From: Sediminibacillus dalangtanensis | GTDB taxonomy: Bacteria; Bacillota; Bacilli; Bacillales; Amphibacillaceae | Length of the DNA stretch: 64,000 bases | NCBI RefSeq assembly: GCF_017792025.1 | Contig: NZ_CP046956.1 | Location: 2,790,001-2,854,000, forward strand | Direction of reading: 5' to 3' | Shown: one piece after another, positions 13,745 to 26,268 of the stretch | Position numbering within the stretch: position 1 is the first letter of the stretch | Layout: the number at the start of each line of letters is the position of its first letter | Notes under the pieces: generated by a model | The model's database searches: none | Seen by the model: the letters and a program-made list of their open reading frames with translations, nothing else | Told to the model about the DNA's origin: nothing | Position numbers and translations under genes: made by a program

Positions 13745-14665
13745 TTAATCTTCTACCATAGACAGCAATACTTTTTCCATTTCTTCTTTTGACAATGATT
13801 CTGCAAACAATACAATTTTGTAACCTTTTTCTGGTACAGTAACCCTCATACCGTACTTCATACCAACACTTTTATCTTTTGTGGAAATATAATCAAACTG
13901 AAATCCATTTAGTCTATAGGTTGTGTCTTTTTTGAAAAGACCAGTCTCCTGCATATCCGCAAGGAAATCTTTTTGATTTATATTCACCTGTTTTGTCCAA
14001 AACACAAACTCTCCATTGCTAAAATCTAATGAAACAGCTGGTTCACTATTTGAGTTTTGCATCGGATAGCTTTCCCCATTTTTTGTATATCCTTCTGGCA
14101 AATATTTTGGTTTAGTAAAAGGGAAGCTTGCCATTTGTTTAGCCTCGGTTGTTTGAAATTTGTTTTCGTAAGTTTCCATTGATTCTTGAATTTGATCTAA
14201 TTTCAGTTCTTCTTCAGCATTAGGATTTTCTCTATTTTCTTTTTGTATCCTATTAAGTATCTCGGTCTGCTCCTTATATAATTGGGTATAATCGTTGAAC
14301 TCTTTTTCTGTTAAATTTTCTTTTGCTATTTCTAAGTGTCTGTCAAAAAAATCTAATTCTCCTTGACTCTCCTCTGGATAAGCTTGCATTAAATTTTCTT
14401 TTGAACCAAATAATTGGTTGATTAACGTTTCAGCAGCGTTCGTAATGTGAGTACCACCGAACGTAAACGCTGAACCAATTATCATTACTGAAGCAGCTGC
14501 AGCAAGTATCCACTTCGGGTAACTTTTTCTTCTTCTATTTACTATATTAGTTTGTTGTATATAACTATTTTTCTCTAATTTTTCAAATGTATTTTTTTTA
14601 AACTCTTCAATATCTACCTGATGTTCAAAGTACGTTTTTGCTGACCTTAATTCTTTTTCCTTCAT
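13745..14665 (-). CDS. Membrane-bound anti-sigma factor-like protein (DUF4367-like C terminus)
   Basis: Protein of 306 residues with a cytoplasmic N terminus (1-50), one transmembrane helix (about 51-70, KWILAAAASVMIIGSAFTFG), a long charged helical stretch (about 100-175) and an extracytoplasmic beta domain beginning PKYLPEGYTKNG. That last part resembles DUF4367 domains of sporulation and anti-sigma proteins. The ATG at 14665 follows GGAGGA; the upstream in-frame ATG overlaps that site. The gene overlaps the end of the sigma factor gene by 41 bases, the usual arrangement of an ECF sigma factor and its membrane anti-sigma partner. The signal sensed is unknown. Confidence 0.75.
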   Translation of the reverse strand: MKEKELRSAKTYFEHQVDIEEFKKNTFEKLEKNSYIQQTNIVNRRRKSYPKWILAAAASVMIIGSAFTFGGTHITNAAETLINQLFGSKENLMQAYPEESQGELDFFDRHLEIAKENLTEKEFNDYTQLYKEQTEILNRIQKENRENPNAEEELKLDQIQESMETYENKFQTTEAKQMASFPFTKPKYLPEGYTKNGESYPMQNSNSEPAVSLDFSNGEFVFWTKQVNINQKDFLADMQETGLFKKDTTYRLNGFQFDYISTKDKSVGMKYGMRVTVPEKGYKIVLFAESLSKEEMEKVLLSMVED

Positions 14666-15155
14666 ATTTATCCTCCTCAATTTGCCTGCTTAATAATTCA
14701 CGACCACGGGCAAGTCTAGATTTAACCGTTCCAATACTTAAATTTAAAATGTTCGATATTTGCTTAATTGAAAGCTCTTCAAAATAGAAGAGTGTAATAG
14801 TCATACTATAATGTTTTGGAAGATTAAGGACGGCGTTATGTACTTCTTCTTCTTGAACACTTCGGAGATATGATTCTTCACTGCTTTCTTGTTTCTTTTC
14901 AGGTAAAAAGTCAGATATGATTTCACGCCAAGATTTTCTAAACGAACTTTTACATTCATTAATCACAATTCTCGCAAGCCAAGGAAAGGGATCTCCTTTA
15001 TTCTCTAATTGGTCCATTGAATGATATGCTTTAATTAATGCATCTTGTACGTTATCTTCTGCTTTCAGCCAATCCTTGACATAAGAATAAGCAACCCTAA
15101 CAAGACGTTGCGTATACTTATCAATCCATTCTTCTAAAACTTCCTTCTTATTCAA
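14625..15155 (-). CDS. ECF-type RNA polymerase sigma factor
   Basis: Sigma-70 family protein of about 176 residues. Region 2 reads RLVRVAYSYVKDWLKAEDNV and QDALIKAYHSMDQ; region 4 reads LPKHYSMTITLFYFEELSIK and ISNILNLSIGTVKSRLARGR. The start is put at TTG 15155 because AAAGGGGG lies at the right distance and overlaps the earlier in-frame ATG. It is translationally coupled to the anti-sigma gene. ECF factors of this kind usually direct their own promoter, but I could not identify a convincing -35/-10 pair. Target genes unknown. Confidence 0.85.
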   Translation of the reverse strand: MNKKEVLEEWIDKYTQRLVRVAYSYVKDWLKAEDNVQDALIKAYHSMDQLENKGDPFPWLARIVINECKSSFRKSWREIISDFLPEKKQESSEESYLRSVQEEEVHNAVLNLPKHYSMTITLFYFEELSIKQISNILNLSIGTVKSRLARGRELLSRQIEEDKYEGKRIKVSKNVL

Positions 15156-15724
15156 GAATTTGCCCCCTTTCATTTTTATATTTTGTTATTTCAAAAGTAA
15201 GATGTATTTACATTAAAAAAGGTTCCATTTTTTTATATAAAAAAGACTGCCATTATTTTCGCAGCCTTCTCTAATATGGAAGAACCCTGTTAACTTAACA
15301 AGGGATTATTAATTTTAAGGTAAATATTCTAACAAAAATTTTCTAGCATCCTCATTTTTCAAATACACTTCATAAAATTTGAGGAAATTTTAGATGTTTT
15401 ATTATTTTTTCTTCACTTAAAATTTCCGTTAGTTTAAGTGAATAATTTCACAATTTCATATATCTTCTTATTTAAATCATACCAGAAGAAAAAGCATTAT
15501 TGATCCTATTTCCTGCTATTATGGAAATAATTCCCTTCGCAATATGAGTCTACTACGTAATAAGGGAGATCCTTCAACTACTTGGCACTAGTAAAAGCGG
15601 CGGTTTGTTGGTTAAGAAACATTCCAACTATTATTAAGTAAATATATAATCCCTGACTTTTTATCTAGTTTTGGTTACAAGTAAATGGGATACTAAGAAC
15701 TCAATAAAATTCAAACGCTAAAAT
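15156..15724. other. Non-coding gap upstream of the sigma factor gene
   Basis: AT-rich, with the promoter region of the sigma/anti-sigma pair at its left end. No supported gene. Short coding-like scraps around 15530-15620 cannot be assigned. Confidence 0.35.
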
Positions 15725-15850: not shown

Positions 15851-15889
15851 AAAAAAAATAGTGGATAATATCAATCATATTATCCACTA
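15851..15889 (-). terminator. Terminator of the metY-to-hom operon
   Basis: Perfect 13-bp arms (15859-15871 and 15877-15889) with a five-base loop. On the minus strand the right side is followed by eight T residues. It lies 77 bases beyond the hom stop codon. Confidence 0.85.
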
Positions 15890-15965
15890 CCTAACAGCTT
15901 TTTCATTATCCTATACTTTCTTTAGCCTGGTAAAGTCACTGTTATAATCGCCAATAAACAACCAT

Positions 15966-17192
15966 TCACGTCAAAACCGGAACAGTATCCTGTATCTCCC
16001 GACCAGCCCCTGCCAATCTAAAGTAATTGCTGATTCTACCGGCCTGCAGCAAGTTCTCCAGCTCTTCTGCAGTAGCGGAAACAAGGTAAGTGTTGCTGTT
16101 AGCTTGCTTGCCACTCCAACGCTGTTTAACAGCAGCAGTTTTCGGTATGGACGGAGCCATGATCAGCCAATCCTGCAAACGACTGGGATCTTCCGCAGAA
16201 AATGTCGTATCCATTATTGCTTTTCTGTTGTCTGTCTCCTTATACAACTGGACGAAATCTTCTACGATTGCACTAGCAGTAGGAAGTGCTCCGGCCCCCG
16301 GTCCCTGTAGTTTTAAGTTGCCTGCAAGATCACCGTCGATGGAAACAGCATTATCCACTCCCGCTACCTCATACAGTGGATGTCCTTGCGACACCGCCAT
16401 CGGCTCGACACGAAGCCGTGCTTTCCCTTCATGGACCTGAAGACTGGCAATATGCTTGATTTTCCAACCGGCCGTTTCGACAGCCTGGATGTCGGCAAGC
16501 GTGATGCTGCGTATTCCACGCCGTGTCACCTGCGTCCAGTCAGGCTGATTTCCAAGCAATAAATCGCTCAAAATCATCAGCTTATAAAAGGCATCCCATC
16601 CATCAACGTCATTCCCGGGGTCTGCTTCAGCATATCCTAGCTCTTGGGCGGCGTGTAATGCTTCTTGAAAGCTGACCTTGTTGTCTGCAATTTCGGTCAG
16701 GATGTAATTGGATGTCCCATTCAAAATGGCTTCTACGTTGGAAATATGATTTACTTGCAACAGCTGCTGCAGGGTCCCTATTATCGGGACGCCCCCTGCA
16801 ACCGCTGCTTCATATTTCAACTGTGCGTGCCCCTTATCGGCGGTTTCCCGCAATGATTTCCCTTCATGAGCAAGGAGCTCTTTATTGGCGGTCACCACAT
16901 GGATTCCTTTTTCCAAGACGCTCTGCAAATAACCGGCTCCAGGTTCTATGCCGTTTATTGCTTCGATGATCACGTCGATTTCGCAGACATTGATCAGCTC
17001 TTCGAAGGAAGAGGTTACCAAAATACCATCGGCGATATCACGTTGTTTTGTTTCGTCCTGAATCAAGACGCCGACAATTTCCACTTTTCTTCCTATTAAT
17101 CTTTCGAGCTTGCTTTGTCGTGATTGGAGGGTTTGGTAAACACTGCTGCCTACTGTCCCAAAGCCGAGCAAAGCCACTTTGATCGTCTTCAT
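15966..17192 (-). CDS. hom: Homoserine dehydrogenase with divergent C-terminal domain
   Basis: Reduces aspartate semialdehyde to homoserine with NAD(P)H, the branch point for Met and Thr. Of 408 residues, the N-terminal nucleotide-binding fold carries GFGTVGSSVYQTL. Next come ANKELLAHEG, the catalytic-region motif AAVAGGVPIIGTLQQ and ELGYAEADPGNDVDGWDAFYK. After the GPGAGALPTASAIV motif about 100 residues remain. In the usual Bacillus Hom (about 430 residues) this region is an ACT regulatory domain, but here I see only NTYLVSATAEELENLLQ and no clear ACT core. As last gene of a SAM-riboswitch operon it is probably a methionine-dedicated isoenzyme, perhaps less sensitive to threonine; that is inference. 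It starts 28 bases after the ligase gene. Confidence 0.92.
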   Translation of the reverse strand: MKTIKVALLGFGTVGSSVYQTLQSRQSKLERLIGRKVEIVGVLIQDETKQRDIADGILVTSSFEELINVCEIDVIIEAINGIEPGAGYLQSVLEKGIHVVTANKELLAHEGKSLRETADKGHAQLKYEAAVAGGVPIIGTLQQLLQVNHISNVEAILNGTSNYILTEIADNKVSFQEALHAAQELGYAEADPGNDVDGWDAFYKLMILSDLLLGNQPDWTQVTRRGIRSITLADIQAVETAGWKIKHIASLQVHEGKARLRVEPMAVSQGHPLYEVAGVDNAVSIDGDLAGNLKLQGPGAGALPTASAIVEDFVQLYKETDNRKAIMDTTFSAEDPSRLQDWLIMAPSIPKTAAVKQRWSGKQANSNTYLVSATAEELENLLQAGRISNYFRLAGAGREIQDTVPVLT

Positions 17193-17220
17193 ACTTTTCC
17201 TCCTGTTCCTTCAAGCTGAG

Positions 17221-18903
17221 TTAAGAGGTTGCACTAAGCTTGTCGAGCTCCCGCTGCTTTAGTTCCCTGCGCAAAATTTTTCCGCTTATCTTTGTTTTCG
17301 GCAGTTCTGCAACTACTTCTATTTCCCGTGGAGCGGCATGTGCTGCTAAGTTTGTTTTAACAAATACGCGCAGTTCCTCAAGCAATTCAGGCGTTTCAAC
17401 GTAACCGGAACGCAAGGTGATAAATGCTTTTACCAGTTCGCCACGCAGGGGATCCGGCTTACCGATCACTCCCGCTTCTGCAACGGCAGGATGTTCGATC
17501 AACTTGCTTTCCACTTCGAACGGCCCGATCCGCTCTCCGGCTGAATTGATCATGTCATCGCTTCTACCCTGGAAAAAGATATAGCCATCTTCATCCTGTA
17601 TCGCCAGATCGCCGGAGACATACCAGCCTTCATATAGAAAATAAGAAGCAAATTTACTCTGGTTTCCCCAAATCTCTTTCATTAATCCTGGCCACGGCGT
17701 TTTAACTGCAAGCTGGCCAATCGAGCCTGGAGGAAGCTCTTTCCCGCTTTCGTCCAATATACCGACCGTAATTCCAGGGAACGGGCGCCCCATCGATCCT
17801 GGCTTTATCGGTTCTGATGGAAGATTGACGATCAAATGGCCACCCGTTTCGGTCATCCACCAGGTATCATGAATCCGCAGTGATAAGTTATCCCAGGCCC
17901 AGTTGATAACTTCGGGATTCAATGGTTCCCCTACGCTTAAAATATGCCGCAGCGACTTCAGGTTATATTGTTTATATAACTCTCCTTGTGCCATCAGCAT
18001 ACGGAAAGCGGTAGGTGCACTGTACCAAATCGTGACACCGAAGTCTGCGATGATTTGATACCAGTTTTCCGCCCGAAAACGACCCGACTGGATGACAACA
18101 GCCGCCCGGTTCAGCCATGGAGCGAACAAACCATACACACTGCCTGTAACCCAGCCGGGATGGGAGGTACACCAATATACATCGTCCTCCTGAATATCCA
18201 GTACCCAGTGTCCGGATTGAAAGTGATGGACGACAGCCCTGTGTGCGTGCAACACACCTTTTGGCTTTCCTGTCGATCCGCTTGTGTAATGAATCAACAT
18301 GCCGTCCTCGGGATCGACCCATTCAACCAGCTCTTCTCCCGTCACAGCAGTCGGTTTGGCTGCTTCGATTTGATCAACCAGCAATACGGTCTGTAAGCTG
18401 GGGATTTCTGATTGCGGTACACGATGGACAAGTTCATTATCCGTAATCAAAAAAGTTCCACTGCAATCATTGATCCTGTCTTTTACGGCCTCTTCCATAA
18501 ATGCTTCGAACAACGGACCGGCAATAGCCCCAATCTTAATAATGGCCAGAATGGAAAAATAACAAGCAGGGGTTTTCGGAAGGAAAACAAACACGCGATC
18601 TCCTTTGCTGACACCCTGTTCCTTCAATACCTGTGCATAATGATCTGTTTTTTCTTTTACCTCGGCGAACGTGAAGCTCTCGTTGGATGCTTCCTGGACA
18701 AAATACAAAGCAGTCTTTTTGCCATACCCTTCGGCAACGTGACGATCGATCGTTTCGTAAGCGGCATTCCATTTGCCGGTTTTGGAAAGACTTAGTTGTT
18801 CTGCGGCTTGCTCCCAGGAGAATTCCGCAGCCACACGGCGATAGTCTGTTAAGTTGTGTACACCTTTATCGGCTTTAAGTATTTTCCCATCATTTCCTGT
18901 CAT
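17221..18903 (-). CDS. AMP-forming acyl-CoA synthetase, acetyl-CoA-synthetase-like
   Basis: Protein of 560 residues of the ANL superfamily, close to AcsA of Bacilli (about 570). Motifs: the phosphate loop YTSGSTGKPKG, TSHPGWVTGSVYG, SVGEPLNPEVINWAW, WWMTETGG, the hinge GRSDDMINSAGERIGPFEVE, and the adenylation lysine in KTKISGKILRRELK. The acetyl-CoA synthetase type is suggested by the tryptophan in TWWMTETGG, which limits the acyl pocket to short acids. It makes acetyl-CoA (or a short acyl-CoA) from acid, ATP and CoA. Placement between the ABC transporter and hom, in a SAM-controlled operon with metX upstream, suggests supply of acetyl-CoA for homoserine acetylation or activation of an imported acid. 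The start follows GAGGAGG. Confidence 0.88.
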   Translation of the reverse strand: MTGNDGKILKADKGVHNLTDYRRVAAEFSWEQAAEQLSLSKTGKWNAAYETIDRHVAEGYGKKTALYFVQEASNESFTFAEVKEKTDHYAQVLKEQGVSKGDRVFVFLPKTPACYFSILAIIKIGAIAGPLFEAFMEEAVKDRINDCSGTFLITDNELVHRVPQSEIPSLQTVLLVDQIEAAKPTAVTGEELVEWVDPEDGMLIHYTSGSTGKPKGVLHAHRAVVHHFQSGHWVLDIQEDDVYWCTSHPGWVTGSVYGLFAPWLNRAAVVIQSGRFRAENWYQIIADFGVTIWYSAPTAFRMLMAQGELYKQYNLKSLRHILSVGEPLNPEVINWAWDNLSLRIHDTWWMTETGGHLIVNLPSEPIKPGSMGRPFPGITVGILDESGKELPPGSIGQLAVKTPWPGLMKEIWGNQSKFASYFLYEGWYVSGDLAIQDEDGYIFFQGRSDDMINSAGERIGPFEVESKLIEHPAVAEAGVIGKPDPLRGELVKAFITLRSGYVETPELLEELRVFVKTNLAAHAAPREIEVVAELPKTKISGKILRRELKQRELDKLSATS

Positions 18904-18932
18904 GTTGTACCTCCTCTATGTATCCAGCTTGG

Positions 18933-19667
18933 TCAAGCTGTCTCGGTTGTTAAGTCCAAGCTGGCAAGTATTTCCGCTTTATAAGCAGCCTGCTCACTGC
19001 TTCCTCTTTCTCTCGGTCTCGGTTCGGAGATCGTGATCTCCCGTTCCACCTTGCCCGGCTGGCCACGCAGCACGATGATGCGGTCGCATAAATAAGCAGC
19101 TTCATCCACGTCATGGGTTACCAGCACCATTGTCGACTGATAATCCCTCCACACTTCAAGCAGCAAATCCTGCAGCTGCATTTTGGTAAACGCATCGAGG
19201 GCACTGAACGGTTCATCCAGCAGCAAAATTTCCGGTGAAGTGGCCAGTGCACGTGCAATCGCCACCCGCTGGGCCATCCCGCCTGAAAGTTGTTTCGGAT
19301 ACAATTTTTCACTGCCGGCAAGTCCGACACTTTCCAAGTAACGGCCTGCCTTCTTTTGTTTTTCCTCTCTGTTTCCCCCCAGACCGAAGGTGACATTGTC
19401 GAGTACATTCAACCAAGGCAGCAAACGAGGCTCCTGGAACATAAACCCAGCCGTCTTCTGTATGTCGTCCACTTTCTTATTATTGATTTCGATCACGCCG
19501 TCAAATTCGGTATCCAGTCCGGAGATGGCACGCAACAGGGTGCTTTTGCCGCAGCCGCTCGTTCCGAGAAGACCGATGATCTCACCAGGTTCCGCTCGGA
19601 AGGAAACATCCTCGACAGCTGCTTTTCCTGCAAACGTCCTTCCCACTCTTTCTAATTGAAGACTCAC
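18933..19667 (-). CDS. ABC transporter ATP-binding protein, SsuB/TauB-like
   Basis: Protein of 244 residues with all ABC ATPase motifs: Walker A GTSGCGKST, Q-loop in FMFQEPRLLPWL, signature LSGGMAQR, Walker B ILLLDEP, D-loop SALD and switch His in LVTHDVDEA. It belongs to the nitrate/sulfonate/taurine subfamily (the LLPW motif after the Q-loop is typical). It powers the permease encoded 12 bases upstream. The SAM-riboswitch context points to uptake of an organosulfur compound. Confidence 0.92.
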   Translation of the reverse strand: MSLQLERVGRTFAGKAAVEDVSFRAEPGEIIGLLGTSGCGKSTLLRAISGLDTEFDGVIEINNKKVDDIQKTAGFMFQEPRLLPWLNVLDNVTFGLGGNREEKQKKAGRYLESVGLAGSEKLYPKQLSGGMAQRVAIARALATSPEILLLDEPFSALDAFTKMQLQDLLLEVWRDYQSTMVLVTHDVDEAAYLCDRIIVLRGQPGKVEREITISEPRPRERGSSEQAAYKAEILASLDLTTETA

Positions 19668-19679
19668 CGCTTTACCTCC

Positions 19680-20525
19680 TTACGATTTTGCAGCCCGATC
19701 TTGCCAATGCAAAGTCCGGGTCTCCAGTATTTTCAGTACCCAATCCGACAGCTTTCCGATTATTGCGAACAAGACAATACTCGCGATAATCGTTTCCGGA
19801 GCGAGCGTGTTCTGGCCGACGACCAGCAAGTATCCAAGACCCTGGCTCGCGCCCATCAGCTCTGCTGCCACGACAAACATCCACCCCAATCCGAGACCGC
19901 TACGAAGTCCGACCAAAAAAGAAGGCAAAGATGCCGGAAGAATGATCCTTCGTACCAGCTGAAATGTATTCAATCCATACATTTTCCCTACCTCGATTAA
20001 CTTTCGATCGACGCCGCCGATGCCACTGACAATATTTAAATAGACTGGAAAAAAGACACCGACCGCAATCATGGCAATTTTCGATGGCTCGCCGATTCCC
20101 ATCCATAAAATGAACAACGGGACCCAGGCAAGAGAAGGGATCGAACGAAATGCTTGGATAAGCGGATCGAATAGCGCTTCGGCATGTTTATAAAATCCGA
20201 CCAACGAACCGAGCGCCACGGCTGCTGCCGTTCCTAGCAGAAAGCCCATCAACACCCGGTAGCTGGTGATGCCGACATGCCCCCAGAGCGTGCCATCTTC
20301 CGCCATCCCGACAATTGTCTCTAAAATAACGGACGGTGCAGGAAGCTGGTAGGCAGGAAAAACTTCCAAACGGCTTAACACTTCCCACACAACCACCAAC
20401 AAAGCCGGAAAAATACTCCCCAATAACAAGGGATGGGTGAACGGATTCTTCGGTTTGATCGTCGATGGCTTGCTCTTGCTTCCCGATGTGAAGACACCGC
20501 TCACTTCACTTTGATTTTTGGCCAT
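19680..20525 (-). CDS. ABC transporter permease, SsuC/TauC-like
   Basis: Protein of 281 residues with about six or seven transmembrane helices and the BPD-transp-1 EAA loop in EVGKMYGLNTFQLVRRIILP. It belongs to the sulfonate/taurine/nitrate permease family (sequence FRSIPSLAWVPLFILWMGIG is characteristic). The N-terminal 30 residues are charged and cytoplasmic. It forms the channel with the ATPase and the lipoprotein encoded on either side, with 24 and 12 base gaps. Substrate is not identified beyond the operon context. Confidence 0.92.
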   Translation of the reverse strand: MAKNQSEVSGVFTSGSKSKPSTIKPKNPFTHPLLLGSIFPALLVVVWEVLSRLEVFPAYQLPAPSVILETIVGMAEDGTLWGHVGITSYRVLMGFLLGTAAAVALGSLVGFYKHAEALFDPLIQAFRSIPSLAWVPLFILWMGIGEPSKIAMIAVGVFFPVYLNIVSGIGGVDRKLIEVGKMYGLNTFQLVRRIILPASLPSFLVGLRSGLGLGWMFVVAAELMGASQGLGYLLVVGQNTLAPETIIASIVLFAIIGKLSDWVLKILETRTLHWQDRAAKS

Positions 20526-20549
20526 GTCTGGTCCTCCTCTCTGACTTTT

Positions 20550-21554
20550 TTATTCCGATATGGTTTCTTCCGCGAAAGATGGGTCGATCAGTTCGTCTGT
20601 CAATTCTTCAATATTGGCTTCCGGATCAATCGTCTCGCTTTCCTGTAGCACTTTTCCAGCCTCAATTAATGCGTCCCGATGTACTTTGCCGGGAACAGGC
20701 TCGGAAAAATCGTTACGTTCCAGTTGTTTGACTGCGACTTCCTCTTTGATTTCTGCTTCTTCAGCCAATAACTCGGCAGCTTCCTCCGGGTTCTCCTTGA
20801 CCCATTTTCTTGCTTTTTCGTACACCTTAATCACACGGTCAACGTATTCCGGATGCTTTTCCGCAAACTCCTCGCGGACATTCAGGAAACCGTACGTATT
20901 AAAGTCAGGATTCCGATAAAAAAGCTTTGCATCCGATTCGAGTTCCAAACGGGCCATATGCGGGTCAAGCCCGGCCCATGCGTCCACCTGCCCGGATGTC
21001 AGGGCGGATGCGCCATCACCGTGCTGCAGATTGACGATTTCCACATCCTCTGCCGGAACACCTTCAGCTTCCAAAGCACGTAGCAGGAAAATGTAGGGAT
21101 CGGTTCCCAGCGTGGCGGCAACCTTCTTTCCTTTCAAATCTTCGAGGCTGGTGATCCCGGAATCTTTCGCTGTGACCAATGCAGTCCATTCCGGTTTTGA
21201 ATAAATGTACACATTCTTGATCGGCGCTCCGTTTGCTTTGGACATCAACGCTGCCGCTCCGGCAGTCGATCCAAAATCGACGCTGTCACTGTTCAAAAAC
21301 TCCAGGGCTTTATTGCTCCCTTGGCTTAGTGCCCATTCTATGTCGATGCCCTCTTCTTCAAATTCTTCCTCTGCCCAGCCGAATTTTTTCAACACCAGGC
21401 TGGTCGGTGAATAGTACGCATAGTCAAGCCGTATCTTATCTGGCGCTCCTTCCGAACTTGCGCTCGATGAACAGCCGGCAGTAACGATAATAATCACCGC
21501 CAAAGCCGTCAGAGCTAAAAAACTTCTTATATCTATCAATGGGATGCGATTCAT
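20550..21554 (-). CDS. ABC transporter substrate-binding lipoprotein, SsuA/NMT1-like
   Basis: Protein of 334 residues. A signal peptide with lipobox VTAGC (Cys at about 28) anchors it outside the membrane. The mature part is a class II periplasmic-binding fold of the sulfonate/taurine type: DYAYYSPTSLVLKKFGWAEE, SDSVDFGSTAGAAALMS, SLEDLKGKKVAATLGTDPY and SGQVDAWAGLDPHM. No FMNH2-dependent sulfonate monooxygenase (SsuD) gene is adjacent, so if the ligand is a sulfonate the desulfonating enzyme is elsewhere; another sulfur-containing ligand or a methionine precursor is also possible. It starts 29 bases after metY. Confidence 0.9.
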   Translation of the reverse strand: MNRIPLIDIRSFLALTALAVIIIVTAGCSSSASSEGAPDKIRLDYAYYSPTSLVLKKFGWAEEEFEEEGIDIEWALSQGSNKALEFLNSDSVDFGSTAGAAALMSKANGAPIKNVYIYSKPEWTALVTAKDSGITSLEDLKGKKVAATLGTDPYIFLLRALEAEGVPAEDVEIVNLQHGDGASALTSGQVDAWAGLDPHMARLELESDAKLFYRNPDFNTYGFLNVREEFAEKHPEYVDRVIKVYEKARKWVKENPEEAAELLAEEAEIKEEVAVKQLERNDFSEPVPGKVHRDALIEAGKVLQESETIDPEANIEELTDELIDPSFAEETISE

Positions 21555-21583
21555 GGGTATCCTCCTCGTCGTTGGTATGATTT

Positions 21584-23563
<1,980 letters not shown>

Positions 23564-23592
23564 TCCATATTAAATTGTCTTGTCTTTGTGTA

Positions 23593-24678
23593 TTAGTTTT
23601 CCAATCCCGATTTAATAATGCTTCCCCATTTTTCAAATTCGACCAGAAAACCGTCATGCCCGAAACTGGTATCAATCAACGTGTATTCTGCCTCTTTCCC
23701 ATTCTGTTTCAACTGGTCGATGAACTGTTCCAGCGAACCCGGCGGAAACAGCAAATCCCCGCTGTAACCCAGCGCCGTTACCGGTGCTTCAATCCGGGAA
23801 GCGGCCTGTTGCCAACCGTCGCGACCACGCCCGATATCATGGGTATCCATCGCCTTCAACAAATACAAATAACTGTTGGCATCAAAACGTTTGGTCAGCT
23901 TTTTCCCCTGGTAATCAAGATAGGATTCGATTTCATAGGCAATTTCATCGTGGAAGTTCCCGGCAGGGGCACGCTGCTTCCTGGAAAAACGTTCATTGAA
24001 CAAATCTCCCGATCGGTATGTGATCATCCCCACCATACGTGCCAGACTCAATCCACTCTCCGGTATGGTTCCTTCGGTATAATTGCCATTGTTCCAATTC
24101 GGGTCATGAAGAATGGCAAGCCTTGCGATATTGTTAAATGCAATCGCATAGTCGGTCAAGTACGGCGTGACAGCCAATGGGATCAAACGGTCCATTTTGT
24201 CAGGGTACATCACTCCCCACTCCAATACTTGCATCCCGCCGAGCGACCCGCCTATGACTGCGGTCAAATGGTCGATACCCAATTTTTCAAGTGCCATCTG
24301 TTGGGCACGGACCATATCGCGGACCGTTATAAACGGAAACTTGGCCTGGTAGGGCTCTCCTGTCCGAGGGTCTAGACTAAGCGGTCCGGTCGAACCATTG
24401 CAGCCGCCCAATACGTTGAATGAAATAACTTGGAACCGATCACTATCGATAAAGCCCCCAGGGGTGATCATTTCTGCCCAGTAGCCTGGCATATCCTGGT
24501 CACCAGCTGCATGTTGGCTGCCGGTCAATGCATGACAGACTAGGATTGCCGGTCCCTCGGCCAATCCAACCCGTTCGTAGGCAAGCTCAACCTCCTGGAT
24601 CACGGTACCGGATTCCAACTCGAGTTCTCCTATGTTGACAGTACCGGTCTTCCTCTCAACAGCTGTTTTCACTTCCAT
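23593..24678 (-). CDS. metX: Homoserine O-acetyltransferase
   Basis: Alpha/beta-hydrolase-fold acetyltransferase of 361 residues, the usual length. It transfers acetyl from acetyl-CoA to homoserine, the first committed step of methionine synthesis in this branch. Visible motifs: LVCHALTGSQHAAG (oxyanion region), NVLGGCNGSTGP, the nucleophile elbow GGSLGGMQ with Ser145, the Asp in SGDLLFPPG and the His in DTSFGHDGFL. The acetyl (rather than succinyl) type is supported by the partner metY. It has its own SAM riboswitch and a strong promoter 500 bases upstream, and a second riboswitch 30 bases after its stop. Confidence 0.95.
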   Translation of the reverse strand: MEVKTAVERKTGTVNIGELELESGTVIQEVELAYERVGLAEGPAILVCHALTGSQHAAGDQDMPGYWAEMITPGGFIDSDRFQVISFNVLGGCNGSTGPLSLDPRTGEPYQAKFPFITVRDMVRAQQMALEKLGIDHLTAVIGGSLGGMQVLEWGVMYPDKMDRLIPLAVTPYLTDYAIAFNNIARLAILHDPNWNNGNYTEGTIPESGLSLARMVGMITYRSGDLFNERFSRKQRAPAGNFHDEIAYEIESYLDYQGKKLTKRFDANSYLYLLKAMDTHDIGRGRDGWQQAASRIEAPVTALGYSGDLLFPPGSLEQFIDQLKQNGKEAEYTLIDTSFGHDGFLVEFEKWGSIIKSGLEN

Positions 24679-24793
24679 ACGACGGATCCACCACCTTTCT
24701 TGTTTTCAATTGATTTGCTCATTTCTCAATCCATTCGCCACAGCGAACCCATATGGATATTCTTTATCACTTTTCCAGTTGTTTGCCTCCCAG

Positions 24794-25032
24794 TTAACTG
24801 TCCAGGAAGGCAGGACAAAAGCGCAAGCGCCTGTTTAAAGGAGTACAGGCTAGAGTCGCCACGTCCTGTGGCAACGCCTGCATGACCCACATCGTTTGGG
24901 CCTCCGACAAGCTTAAGAATAGCCTCGGCTTGGCGCTTTTTGCCACACAGAGGGTGGGCTTAAGACCTCGAGGGGGTAAGCGCTGGAGCTGGATGTGGCT
25001 GGTTCAGCCAATAATGATCCACAGACAGTTAA
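24794..25032. repeat. MITE-like interspersed element, about 239 bp
   Basis: Bounded by perfect 9-bp inverted repeats TTAACTGTC (24794-24802) and GACAGTTAA (25024-25032). Inside are AAAAGCGCAAGCGCC near the left end, TCCGACAAGCTTAAGAATAG in the centre and AAGCGCTGGAGCTGGATGTG near the right, a combination I recall from intergenic repeats of Bacillaceae. No coding capacity. It separates metX from its riboswitch, so it is part of the metX 5' untranslated region. Confidence 0.6.
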
Positions 25033-25050
25033 ATTTATAAATTTCCTACA

Positions 25051-25209
25051 CAATAAAAAAATGCCTCTCCAGAAGATAGAGAGGCATTGGTTATCAATTC
25101 ACTCCTTATCTTCCAAGCTTTCGCTCAGCAGGAATTAGCACCTTTTTAAGCCGTGGCTTAAAGGTTGCCGGGTTTCATCGGGCCAGTCCCTCCACCTCTC
25201 TGGATAAGT
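25051..25209 (-). promoter_or_regulatory. SAM-I (S-box) riboswitch upstream of metX
   Basis: Same architecture as the copy at 23.5 kb: ACTTATCCAGAGAGG, GAGGGACTGGCCCGATGAA, CCCGGCAACC, variable hairpin, AAGGTGCTAATTCC, closing strand near 25105. The terminator hairpin ATGCCTCTC/GAGAGGCAT (25061-25087) is followed on the minus strand by a T-rich run. Unusually, about 370 bases, including a 239-bp repeat element, lie between the terminator and the metX start. Confidence 0.95.
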
Positions 25210-25241
25210 ATTCGCAATATTCCGTTTTGATTGTAACCAGA

Positions 25242-25282
25242 ATTCTAGCATGTAGCAGAAAACCTGTCAACAGGTTTTCTGC
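25242..25282 (-). promoter_or_regulatory. SigmaA promoter of metX with palindrome over the -35
   Basis: On the minus strand TTGACA (25270-25265), 17 bases, TAGAAT (25247-25242), ending about 30 bases before the riboswitch. The -35 lies at the centre of a perfect inverted repeat with 13-bp arms GCAGAAAACCTGT/ACAGGTTTTCTGC (25255-25267 and 25270-25282), which could be an operator. Confidence 0.75.
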
Positions 25283-25355: not shown

Positions 25356-25443
25356 ATGTTAACTGTCGCGATAGGACGGGCCCGCCAGCGATATCGAAGT
25401 CAGAAGAAAGCAGACGAAATTACTTAAAAAGGTGGTTTTTCAC

Positions 25444-26268
25444 TTGTTTTTTCACAGAAAAGAACTTCAGTATCATGCAAAACCAGAAAAGTCCGACCCA
25501 CTCTTTGCCAAGCAGCTCCAGGAGATCTTAGGTGGACAATTCGGTGAAATGTCCGTAGCGATGCAGTATCTTTTCCAAGGCTTCAACACGCGCGGAAACG
25601 AAAAGTATAAAGACTTGATCATGGACACTGGTGCAGAAGAACTTGGCCACGTTGAAATGATTGCCACCATGGTTGCACGTTTACTGGATGGAGCGCCAAT
25701 CAACGAACAGGAAAAAGCGGCTGAAGACCCTGTAATCGGCGCAATTATGGGCGGTATGAACCCGCATCACGCGATTGTTTCCGGACTCGGAGCCACTCCG
25801 GAAAATAGTGCAGGCGTCCCATGGAGTGCAGGATATATCATTGCCAGCGGCAACTTGATGGCAGACATGCGTGCCAATCTTAACGCTGAATCGCAAGGAA
25901 GACTGCAGGTTGCCCGACTTTATGAATTGACGGAAGACCGCGGTGTCAAAGACATGCTTTCCTTCCTGCTGGCCAGAGATACCATGCACCAAAACCAATG
26001 GATGGCAGCCCTGCAGGAATTAGAAGAAAAAGAGGGCGGCAAAATCACTCCTACCACCGTACCAGCAGAATGGGAAGCATTGGACTTCTCCCATAAACTG
26101 TATAACTTTTCTGAAGGAGAGGATAGTGCACGCGGTATTTGGGCTTCTGGCAATGCGCCTGACGGCCATGACTTTCAATATGAAAGCGAGCCAGTAGGCT
26201 TTGGAGGAAAACCGGAACTGAAACCAGCTCCTCCATATGTACACTCAACACCTCCCCTTGATAAATAA
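25444..26268 (+). CDS. Manganese catalase
   Basis: Di-manganese catalase of 274 residues that degrades hydrogen peroxide, like YdbD/YjqC of B. subtilis. A ferritin-like four-helix bundle supplies the metal ligands: Glu in GGQFGEMSVAMQYLFQ, GAEELGHVEMIATMVARLL, then a second E/H pair in YELTEDRGVKDMLSFLLARD and TMHQNQW. The C-terminal tail is proline-rich (KPAPPYVHSTPP). The start is placed at TTG 25444, giving LFFHRKELQYHAKPEK, because AAAAAGGTGG at 25426-25435 is a ribosome site for it and overlaps the earlier GTG. Monocistronic, with a strong terminator after it and stress-type promoter candidates before it. Confidence 0.92.
   Translation: MFFHRKELQYHAKPEKSDPLFAKQLQEILGGQFGEMSVAMQYLFQGFNTRGNEKYKDLIMDTGAEELGHVEMIATMVARLLDGAPINEQEKAAEDPVIGAIMGGMNPHHAIVSGLGATPENSAGVPWSAGYIIASGNLMADMRANLNAESQGRLQVARLYELTEDRGVKDMLSFLLARDTMHQNQWMAALQELEEKEGGKITPTTVPAEWEALDFSHKLYNFSEGEDSARGIWASGNAPDGHDFQYESEPVGFGGKPELKPAPPYVHSTPPLDK

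Follow-up and report, generated by a model that had tools for sequence, protein, structure and literature searches.

A 64-kb stretch of the Sediminibacillus dalangtanensis genome (bases 2790001 to 2854000 of a single 4.1-Mb contig; hereafter, the window) carries seven genes, all on the minus strand, in which methionine synthesis is combined with an organosulfur-type transporter behind two S-adenosylmethionine (SAM) riboswitches (S-boxes). The genes are metX, metY with a fused coenzyme A (CoA)-binding domain (PF13380), ssuA-, ssuC-, and ssuB-like genes, an AMP-forming acetate--CoA ligase paralogue that we call acsL, and hom. From their sequences, we tentatively read the unit as an S-box-controlled operon that would make methionine from imported organic sulfur while AcsL recycles acetate to acetyl-CoA, a reading that we consider quite possible, if short of probable. 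Low SAM would open both riboswitch terminators, judging from standard S-box anatomy, and the SsuABC-type transporter would import a small organosulfur compound. Enzymes encoded mostly elsewhere would release its reduced sulfur as sulfide or methanethiol, with S-box-led DmoA-like, SfnG-like, and SsuE proteins as the candidates in S. dalangtanensis. Hom and MetX would make O-acetylhomoserine, to which MetY would join the sulfur with release of acetate. From this acetate, AcsL would regenerate the acetyl-CoA that MetX uses, and MetY may sense CoA through its CoA-binding domain.

On the minus strand, a promoter-like site is followed by S-box 1, a hairpin, metX, S-box 2, a hairpin, metY-ssuA-ssuC-ssuB-acsL-hom, and a last hairpin (Table 1). 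The gaps from metY to hom are, in order, 29, 24, 12, 29, and 28 bases by open reading frame (ORF) coordinates. An initial annotation of this DNA had described two S-boxes, this gene order, a single strand, and gaps of 12 to 29 bases, all of which were borne out by ORF, RF00162, and family-model scans; the terminator that it placed after hom corresponds to a terminator-like hairpin at 15892 to 15856, and further hairpins follow both S-boxes. Both S-boxes exceed the RF00162 gathering score (44.4 bits) and have a terminator-like hairpin downstream, as members of that family do. The hairpin stretch of S-box 2 pairs differently in the minimum-energy fold, as an alternative (antiterminator-like) structure would. 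Over the region we counted 9 promoter-like sites (shuffle mean of 10.6, no excess) and 15 terminator-like sites (shuffle mean of 10.5), single sites of either kind being suggestive only. Because no promoter-like match better than 9/12 was found upstream of S-box 2, one transcript carrying two riboswitch checkpoints is likely. Chance S-boxes were rejected as an explanation: a sequence pattern for S-boxes had no match when 1,515,386 bases of first-order shuffle were scanned, and of nine loci run through cmscan, seven had S-boxes (the exceptions being L133 and L129). The S-box counts by pattern are lower bounds, since cmscan detected S-boxes in L060 and L055, where the pattern failed. Within the lengthy leader that separates S-box 1 from metX, a Bacillaceae-1 RNA match (RF01690, 62.6 bits) lies in antisense orientation at 24834 to 24900 (+). 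No other RF01690 match in the window exceeds the threshold, although an 18-base piece of this one occurs a second time, with three mismatches.

To place the locus among genomes, we fetched 31 loci with relatives of MetY. The order metY-CoA domain-ssuA-ssuC-ssuB-acsL was found in 16 of them, from 13 genera, and partially in three more (L047, L055, and L057); the other 12 (L062 and L072 to L082) had a less similar MetY and no transporter. A search with the binding protein in 299 genomes of the class gave 17 matches at 52 to 100% identity, and the other matches listed were all at or below 37%. A scan of named genomes gave at least 594 relatives of the binding protein, of which we kept the 80 best and divided them by hand, from organism names, into 55 Bacilli and 25 non-Bacilli loci; several are the same genomes as in the other set, and the counts are therefore not additive. 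The genera included Virgibacillus, Aquibacillus, Oceanobacillus, Gracilibacillus, Fictibacillus, Terribacillus, Halobacillus, Amphibacillus, Halolactibacillus, Streptohalobacillus, Evansella, Bhargavaea, and Geomicrobium. Among the 53 Bacilli loci with enough flanking sequence, acsL was present in 42, an S-box by pattern in at least 40, and metY in 34. In this survey a metY was scored only where one uninterrupted match reached 45% identity and half coverage, so that L141 and L145 were scored as lacking it despite a metY ORF at 52%. The co-occurrence of ligase, transporter, and S-box, which the initial annotation had proposed to check, was thus found across Bacilli genomes. Non-Bacilli loci with the same transporter and enough flank had no acsL (0/20) and no S-box (0/22). 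AcsL was 91 to 93% identical in relatives including Sediminibacillus halophilus, S. terrae, and Virgibacillus senegalensis. Because the gene order recurs in 16 of 31 loci and 13 genera, and in named genomes as well, the arrangement is conserved beyond chance, and a single-locus oddity was rejected.

Several loci hold only a subset of the genes. L047 has S-box-metY-acsL-hom with the transporter missing from the locus (judged for the locus only), and L314 has S-box-metY-acsL without a transporter, its genome (G226) having no close SsuA match. In L057, metY-ssuACB occurs without acsL and is followed by metX and hom, and MetY-CoA fusions without transporter or ligase also exist (L062 and others). 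S. dalangtanensis itself has such a second S-box-led fusion with no transporter or ligase alongside (L062, 1 to 15716), 65% identical overall and 37% in the CoA domain. One genome has a molybdopterin-binding oxidoreductase-domain protein and a sodium:solute symporter encoded between metY and ssuA (L127, 5446 to 7738, +).

The enzymes around O-acetylhomoserine were assigned by family models. MetX passed NF001209 (Table 1) but did not reach TIGR01392 (399.2 against 500). MetY passed TIGR01326 (cut-off 495.1) and narrowly missed the equivalog PRK08248 (704.2 against 726). Its start is more likely the ATG at 23368 (594 amino acids [aa]) than the TTG at 23407, where the ORF opens, because AGGAGG stands just upstream and 594 aa is also the length of the closest database copy. 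At least one of metX and metA is present in each of the 27 genomes tested. The initial annotation spoke of the operon's "own" homoserine dehydrogenase, and Hom indeed looks dedicated to methionine, because none of the eight locus Homs examined had an ACT domain listed at E ≤ 5 (HMMER filters drop most matches above 0.1). Such an enzyme would fit a homoserine supply that escapes feedback by threonine. In Virgibacillus senegalensis, Hom appears as a 645-residue frame holding most of the protein twice (L045, 10187 to 12124, +, and L138, 14359 to 16296, +, from the same genome), which is either a duplication or an assembly artefact.

AcsL scored above the acetate--CoA ligase cut-off of NF003313 (Table 1), and its nearest PDB entry is 9g79, an acetyl-coenzyme A synthetase of 572 residues. 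Database names seen for AcsL were mostly plain "acetate--CoA ligase" or "acetyl-CoA synthetase." The second ligase copy of S. dalangtanensis (AcsA) is 59% identical to it. The motifs GWVTG, SVGEP, and DTWW are intact in all 26 full-length cassette copies of AcsL (two fragments in the broken locus L134 were left out); GWVTG, VGEP, and DTWW we take to be the acetate-pocket motifs of AcsA-type ligases. In these 26 copies the sequence is PKTxISGK, whereas the host's second copy has PKTRSGK and is one residue shorter there. With its extra Ile (PKTKISGK), AcsL departs from the AcsA spacing before the lysine that is presumably catalytic. We collected 112 ligase sequences, which gave 75 distinct ones by their last 300 residues, and added the copy from the window; the longer motif occurred in 65 distinct ligases and the shorter in 11. 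The 65 AcsL sequences formed one clade (support of 0.92), and the 11 AcsA-type sequences did not, as expected in a tree read as drawn if its root lies among the AcsA-type sequences. The two groups were set by the motif itself, and only the clade is independent evidence. Just before GWVTG, position 248 is His in 65/65 AcsL and Asp in 11/11 AcsA sequences. In genomes G011 and G034, AcsL is the sole match to the ligase family at E ≤ 0.001, and G012 (Halolactibacillus) has two. Near a contig end in G012, an S-box also precedes a 296-aa frame whose sequence resembles the beginning of an AMP-forming ligase (31% to AcsL; L291, 403 to 1293, +).

The genes could also share an operon only because all are wanted at low SAM, with the ligase as a second acetyl-CoA synthetase for general supply. 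Every pair among metY, ssuACB, and acsL does occur somewhere without the third. The fixed order in many genera, the separate AcsL clade, and the retention of AcsL in the two genomes with no other ligase-family match make such a loose association very improbable. The acetate/CoA cycle would be the simplest role for AcsL, because the enzyme has acetate-enzyme motifs, remains beside metY in loci that lack the transporter, and was not found next to the transporter outside Bacilli. The two loci in which AcsL stays with metY without a transporter (L047 and L314) likewise favor acetyl-CoA supply or acetate recycling. Of the initial annotation's proposal that the ligase may regenerate acetyl-CoA from the acetate released by MetY, the S-box-led unit, this association with metY, and the intact acetate-pocket motifs have stood, and the cycle itself keeps the tentative standing given above.

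For the transporter, the binding protein passed the TIGR01728 SsuA model (259 against 163.5); the NCBIfam models for the three components were not reached (PRK11553 for SsuA, 112.6 against 299; PRK11247 for SsuB, 216.9 against 395; PRK11365 for SsuC, 185.7 against 347). Its predicted structure (mean predicted local distance difference test score of 89.6) had the SsuA proteins of E. coli and Xanthomonas as its nearest matches, followed by TauA. The modeled protein has an SsuA-like fold, although the fold does not reveal the ligand. In a 20-member alignment, 74 residues were invariant. These invariants were kept at a mean of 98.6% in 49 Bacilli loci (some of them from the same genomes as alignment members), at 98.9% in six hand-listed monooxygenase-linked Bacilli loci, at 95.1% in 25 non-Bacilli loci, and at 95.0% in the 14 monooxygenase-linked loci among the latter. 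Thirteen next-best SsuA-like paralogues, which were not scanned with the family model, kept 36.9%. By these alignments, the binding protein is a separate SsuA-related subfamily. The retention of invariant residues makes the same ligand likely throughout the subfamily, and this ligand may differ from that of canonical SsuA.

The initial annotation had noted the lack of a neighboring SsuD and suggested that the cargo might not be a sulfonate. SsuD and SsuE are indeed not encoded in the operon. The argument is weak, as orthologous transporters often adjoin SsuD, SfnG-like, and DmoA-like enzymes. Five monooxygenase queries placed SsuD, SfnG, SfnG-like, or DmoA-type genes no more than 10 kb from the orthologous transporter in 14/25 non-Bacilli and 8/55 Bacilli loci; none of the five queries matched in the other 11 of 25 non-Bacilli loci. 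Orthologues adjoin SsuD in cyanobacteria and proteobacteria. Beside the transporter, L135 has an SsuD over cut-off, a DmoA-family enzyme, and an SsuE-like reductase (the last recognized by eye); L129 has an SfnG-like enzyme, an ATP-grasp protein, SfnG, and an acyl-CoA dehydrogenase; and L141, L144, and L145 have DmoA-like, SsuE-like, SfnG-like, and ATP-grasp proteins and metY. Of three plasmid-borne copies, that of Rhizobium gallicum neighbors SfnB-family and SsuD genes, that of Pseudonocardia a DmoA-family gene, and that of Synechococcus only sulfatase and acyl-CoA dehydrogenase family genes.

The missing-SsuD argument is also undercut by the host genome, which encodes SsuE, SfnG-like, and DmoA-like proteins behind S-boxes elsewhere. 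A genome-wide scan of S. dalangtanensis gave 12 S-boxes. By family models, genes led by these S-boxes include those for a MetE-like protein; for an SfnG-like monooxygenase with an ATP-grasp protein after it; for SsuE, a DmoA-family monooxygenase, and a pyridoxal phosphate enzyme; and for a second DmoA-family monooxygenase along with a sodium symporter. Genes recognized by eye as two MetNIQ sets and as MetK are also S-box led. The DmoA-family protein encoded with SsuE has as its nearest PDB entry 6ak1, a dimethyl-sulfide monooxygenase. The ATP-grasp protein after the SfnG-like monooxygenase is RimK-like (L064, 5810 to 6769, -), and a similar SfnG-like/ATP-grasp pair lies near the transporter in L129, L132, L141, L144, and L145.

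Whether sulfite would be of use to the host bears on the cargo. The sulfite reductase domain, searched with the single model PF01077, had no match in the closed S. dalangtanensis genome, in four congeners, or in 14 of the 22 genomes tested (S. dalangtanensis included); of 14 control genomes, 11, among them B. subtilis, had a match. As no PF01077 match was found, S. dalangtanensis would have no assimilatory use for sulfite released from a sulfonate, and a thiol-yielding compound fits better. According to a review, MetY accepts methanethiol in Corynebacterium (PMC6302742). By analogy, a thiol such as methanethiol could pass straight to methionine through MetY. The conclusion of a nonsulfonate cargo may therefore still hold, on the absence of PF01077 rather than of SsuD. 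Sulfite reductase loss as a correlate of the cassette was not supported, as full-length PF01077 occurred in 5/15 carriers (G000 to G004, G007, G011, G012, G019, G020, G026, G031, G034, G036, and G329) versus 8/23 other genomes of the bacterial family to which S. dalangtanensis belongs. Carriers other than G329 were called by a close MetY fusion (the G031 locus has no transporter); the 23 noncarriers were classed by MetY search alone, SsuA not being sought in all, and in three of them PF01077 matched only in frames of about 220 aa, which were not counted as full length.

The transporter could instead import alkanesulfonates, which S-box-controlled SfnG/SsuD-like proteins and SsuE encoded elsewhere would convert to sulfite, then sulfide for MetY, with AcsL as a side activity. 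SsuA is the closest family and fold, orthologous transporters adjoin both the SsuD over cut-off in L135 and SsuD-annotated genes, and S. dalangtanensis has its SfnG-like and SsuE genes under S-boxes. We nevertheless consider this route unlikely, given the absence of PF01077 from the host and its four congeners, the low retention of subfamily invariants in the next-best SsuA-like paralogues, and a genome (G050) that has no luciferase-like protein.

Several observations weigh against an operon in which AcsL recycles acetate. Recapturing one acetate per methionine would be a small gain, and the host AcsA paralogue could supply acetyl-CoA. No metX match was found in 11 of the 27 genomes, nine of which have the cassette acsL (all eleven have metA). 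Cassettes without a detected S-box exist (L133 by cmscan; L165, L178, and L180 by pattern), although L133 and L178 lie on contigs of equal length. Among the candidate sulfur-releasing enzymes of the host, the second DmoA-like protein is closer to the alkane monooxygenase 3b9n than to 6ak1, and the SfnG-like protein falls below the SfnG cut-off, its nearest PDB entry being the uncharacterized 3rao. AcsL is also tied to the transporter by loci with S-box-ssuACB-acsL and no metY (9/53 complete Bacilli loci) and by one protein cluster (P0038) in which SsuB and AcsL are joined in a single 803-residue frame. Finally, acsL and monooxygenase genes beside the transporter tend to exclude each other (monooxygenase genes in 2/42 loci with acsL versus 6/11 without); the P value of 0.0005 by locus becomes 0.02 by genus-like groups assigned by hand from names, and the comparison is confounded by ancestry.

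The last two observations would be expected if AcsL acted on the import itself, making the CoA ester of a small organosulfur acid from which a thiol is released and captured by MetY, with no need for sulfite reductase or a flavin monooxygenase. The position of acsL after ssuACB in most Bacilli loci, the genomes without PF01077, the status of AcsL as sole ligase-family match in G011 and G034, and the His at position 248 would also suit this. In 16 noncassette S-box regions of G011, G012, and G034 (one region short), no monooxygenase query matched, yet these genomes do carry one or two PF00296 proteins. G050 keeps metY-ssuACB without any PF00296 protein, yet has no adjoining acsL either. A pocket with acetate-ligase motifs would leave room for C2-C3 acids only, L047 and L314 retain acsL although they lack the transporter, the operon has no candidate lyase for a CoA ester, and MetY-CoA fusions occur without transporter or ligase. 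On balance, we regard activation of the import by AcsL as somewhat unlikely. A full sulfite-free and possibly oxygen-independent route to methionine, in which AcsL replaces the flavin monooxygenase and the CoA domain of MetY receives the CoA-ester product so that its sulfur passes to O-acetylhomoserine, is decidedly unlikely. Acetate recycling by AcsL remains the reading that we favor.

Table 1. Features of the S-box-led methionine unit (window positions)
Feature	Position	Strand	Evidence
Promoter-like site, TTGACA-17-TAGAAT, TG before second hexamer	25242..25270	-	Consensus match only, 11/12, best in locus
SAM-I riboswitch (S-box) 1, upstream of metX	25103..25210	-	RF00162, 84.9 bits
Terminator-like hairpin of S-box 1	25060..25088	-	Hairpin scan, folding
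metX, homoserine O-acetyltransferase, 361 aa	23593..24678	-	NF001209, 426.7 bits (cut-off 331)
S-box 2, upstream of metY	23455..23563	-	RF00162, 92.3 bits
Terminator-like hairpin of S-box 2	23415..23438	-	Hairpin scan
metY, O-acetylhomoserine sulfhydrylase fused to CoA-binding domain, 594 aa	21584..23368	-	TIGR01326, 661.4 bits
C-terminal CoA_binding_2 domain (PF13380) of MetY	21632..21973	-	132.6 bits; nearest PDB 2duw, 1iuk
ssuA-like lipoprotein, binding protein of distinct SsuA-related subfamily, 334 aa	20550..21554	-	Family models, alignment, structure comparison
ssuC-like permease	19680..20525	-	Family models
ssuB-like ATPase	18933..19667	-	Family models
acsL, AMP-forming acetate--CoA ligase paralogue, 560 aa	17221..18903	-	NF003313, 790.1 bits (cut-off 729)
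PKTKISGK of AcsL, one-residue insertion common to AcsL clade	17278..17301	-	Alignments, tree
hom, homoserine dehydrogenase without recognizable ACT domain, 408 aa	15966..17192	-	Family models
Terminator-like hairpin, end of unit	15856..15892	-	Hairpin scan

Two neighbors flank the unit. A manganese catalase gene (25432 to 26268, +) diverges from the operon, and a gene that looks similar by eye adjoins L043 to L046 and L058. Downstream of hom (13745 to 15173, -) lie genes for a sigma-70-family factor (regions 2 and 4) and a 311-aa protein without a Pfam match, which we would guess to be its anti-sigma partner.

Describing this conserved, testable unit bears on how salt-loving and other Bacillales may obtain methionine sulfur when unable to reduce sulfite. 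It also offers an SsuA-like subfamily spanning Bacilli to cyanobacteria and proteobacteria as a target for ligand identification and an AcsA paralogue that is recognizable by a single inserted residue. All components come from known families, and the conserved combination, which we did not find described, is a variant of the S-box methionine regulon; the literature was searched by title and abstract opening, with most subscription papers outside its scope.

Like the S-box methionine regulon of Bacillales, the unit has the same riboswitch class with terminator hairpins, and a MetE-like gene and genes resembling metNIQ and metK by eye are S-box led, but here an organosulfur-type ABC (ATP-binding cassette) transporter, an acetate--CoA ligase paralogue, and Hom are added. 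The main text of Sun et al. (2013; PMC3766115) does not mention ssu, sulfonate, or acetyl-CoA synthetase. With the SsuABC (ssuEADCB) alkanesulfonate systems, the unit shares the transporter family and fold and orthologues that adjoin SsuD in other bacteria; it differs in its S-box lead, its distinct binding-protein subfamily, the absence of SsuD and SsuE from the operon, and a host without PF01077. AcsL resembles acetyl-CoA synthetase AcsA in its identity to the host copy, its pocket motifs, and its nearest PDB structure, whereas the insertion at PKTxISGK, the separate clade, and the S-box operon set it apart. Homologues of the dimethyl sulfide/dimethyl sulfone assimilation enzymes (DmoA, SfnG, and MsuE/SsuE) are S-box led in S. 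dalangtanensis. The account of the soil route in PMC13352529 has it end in sulfite, however, which S. dalangtanensis, to judge from PF01077, appears unable to reduce.

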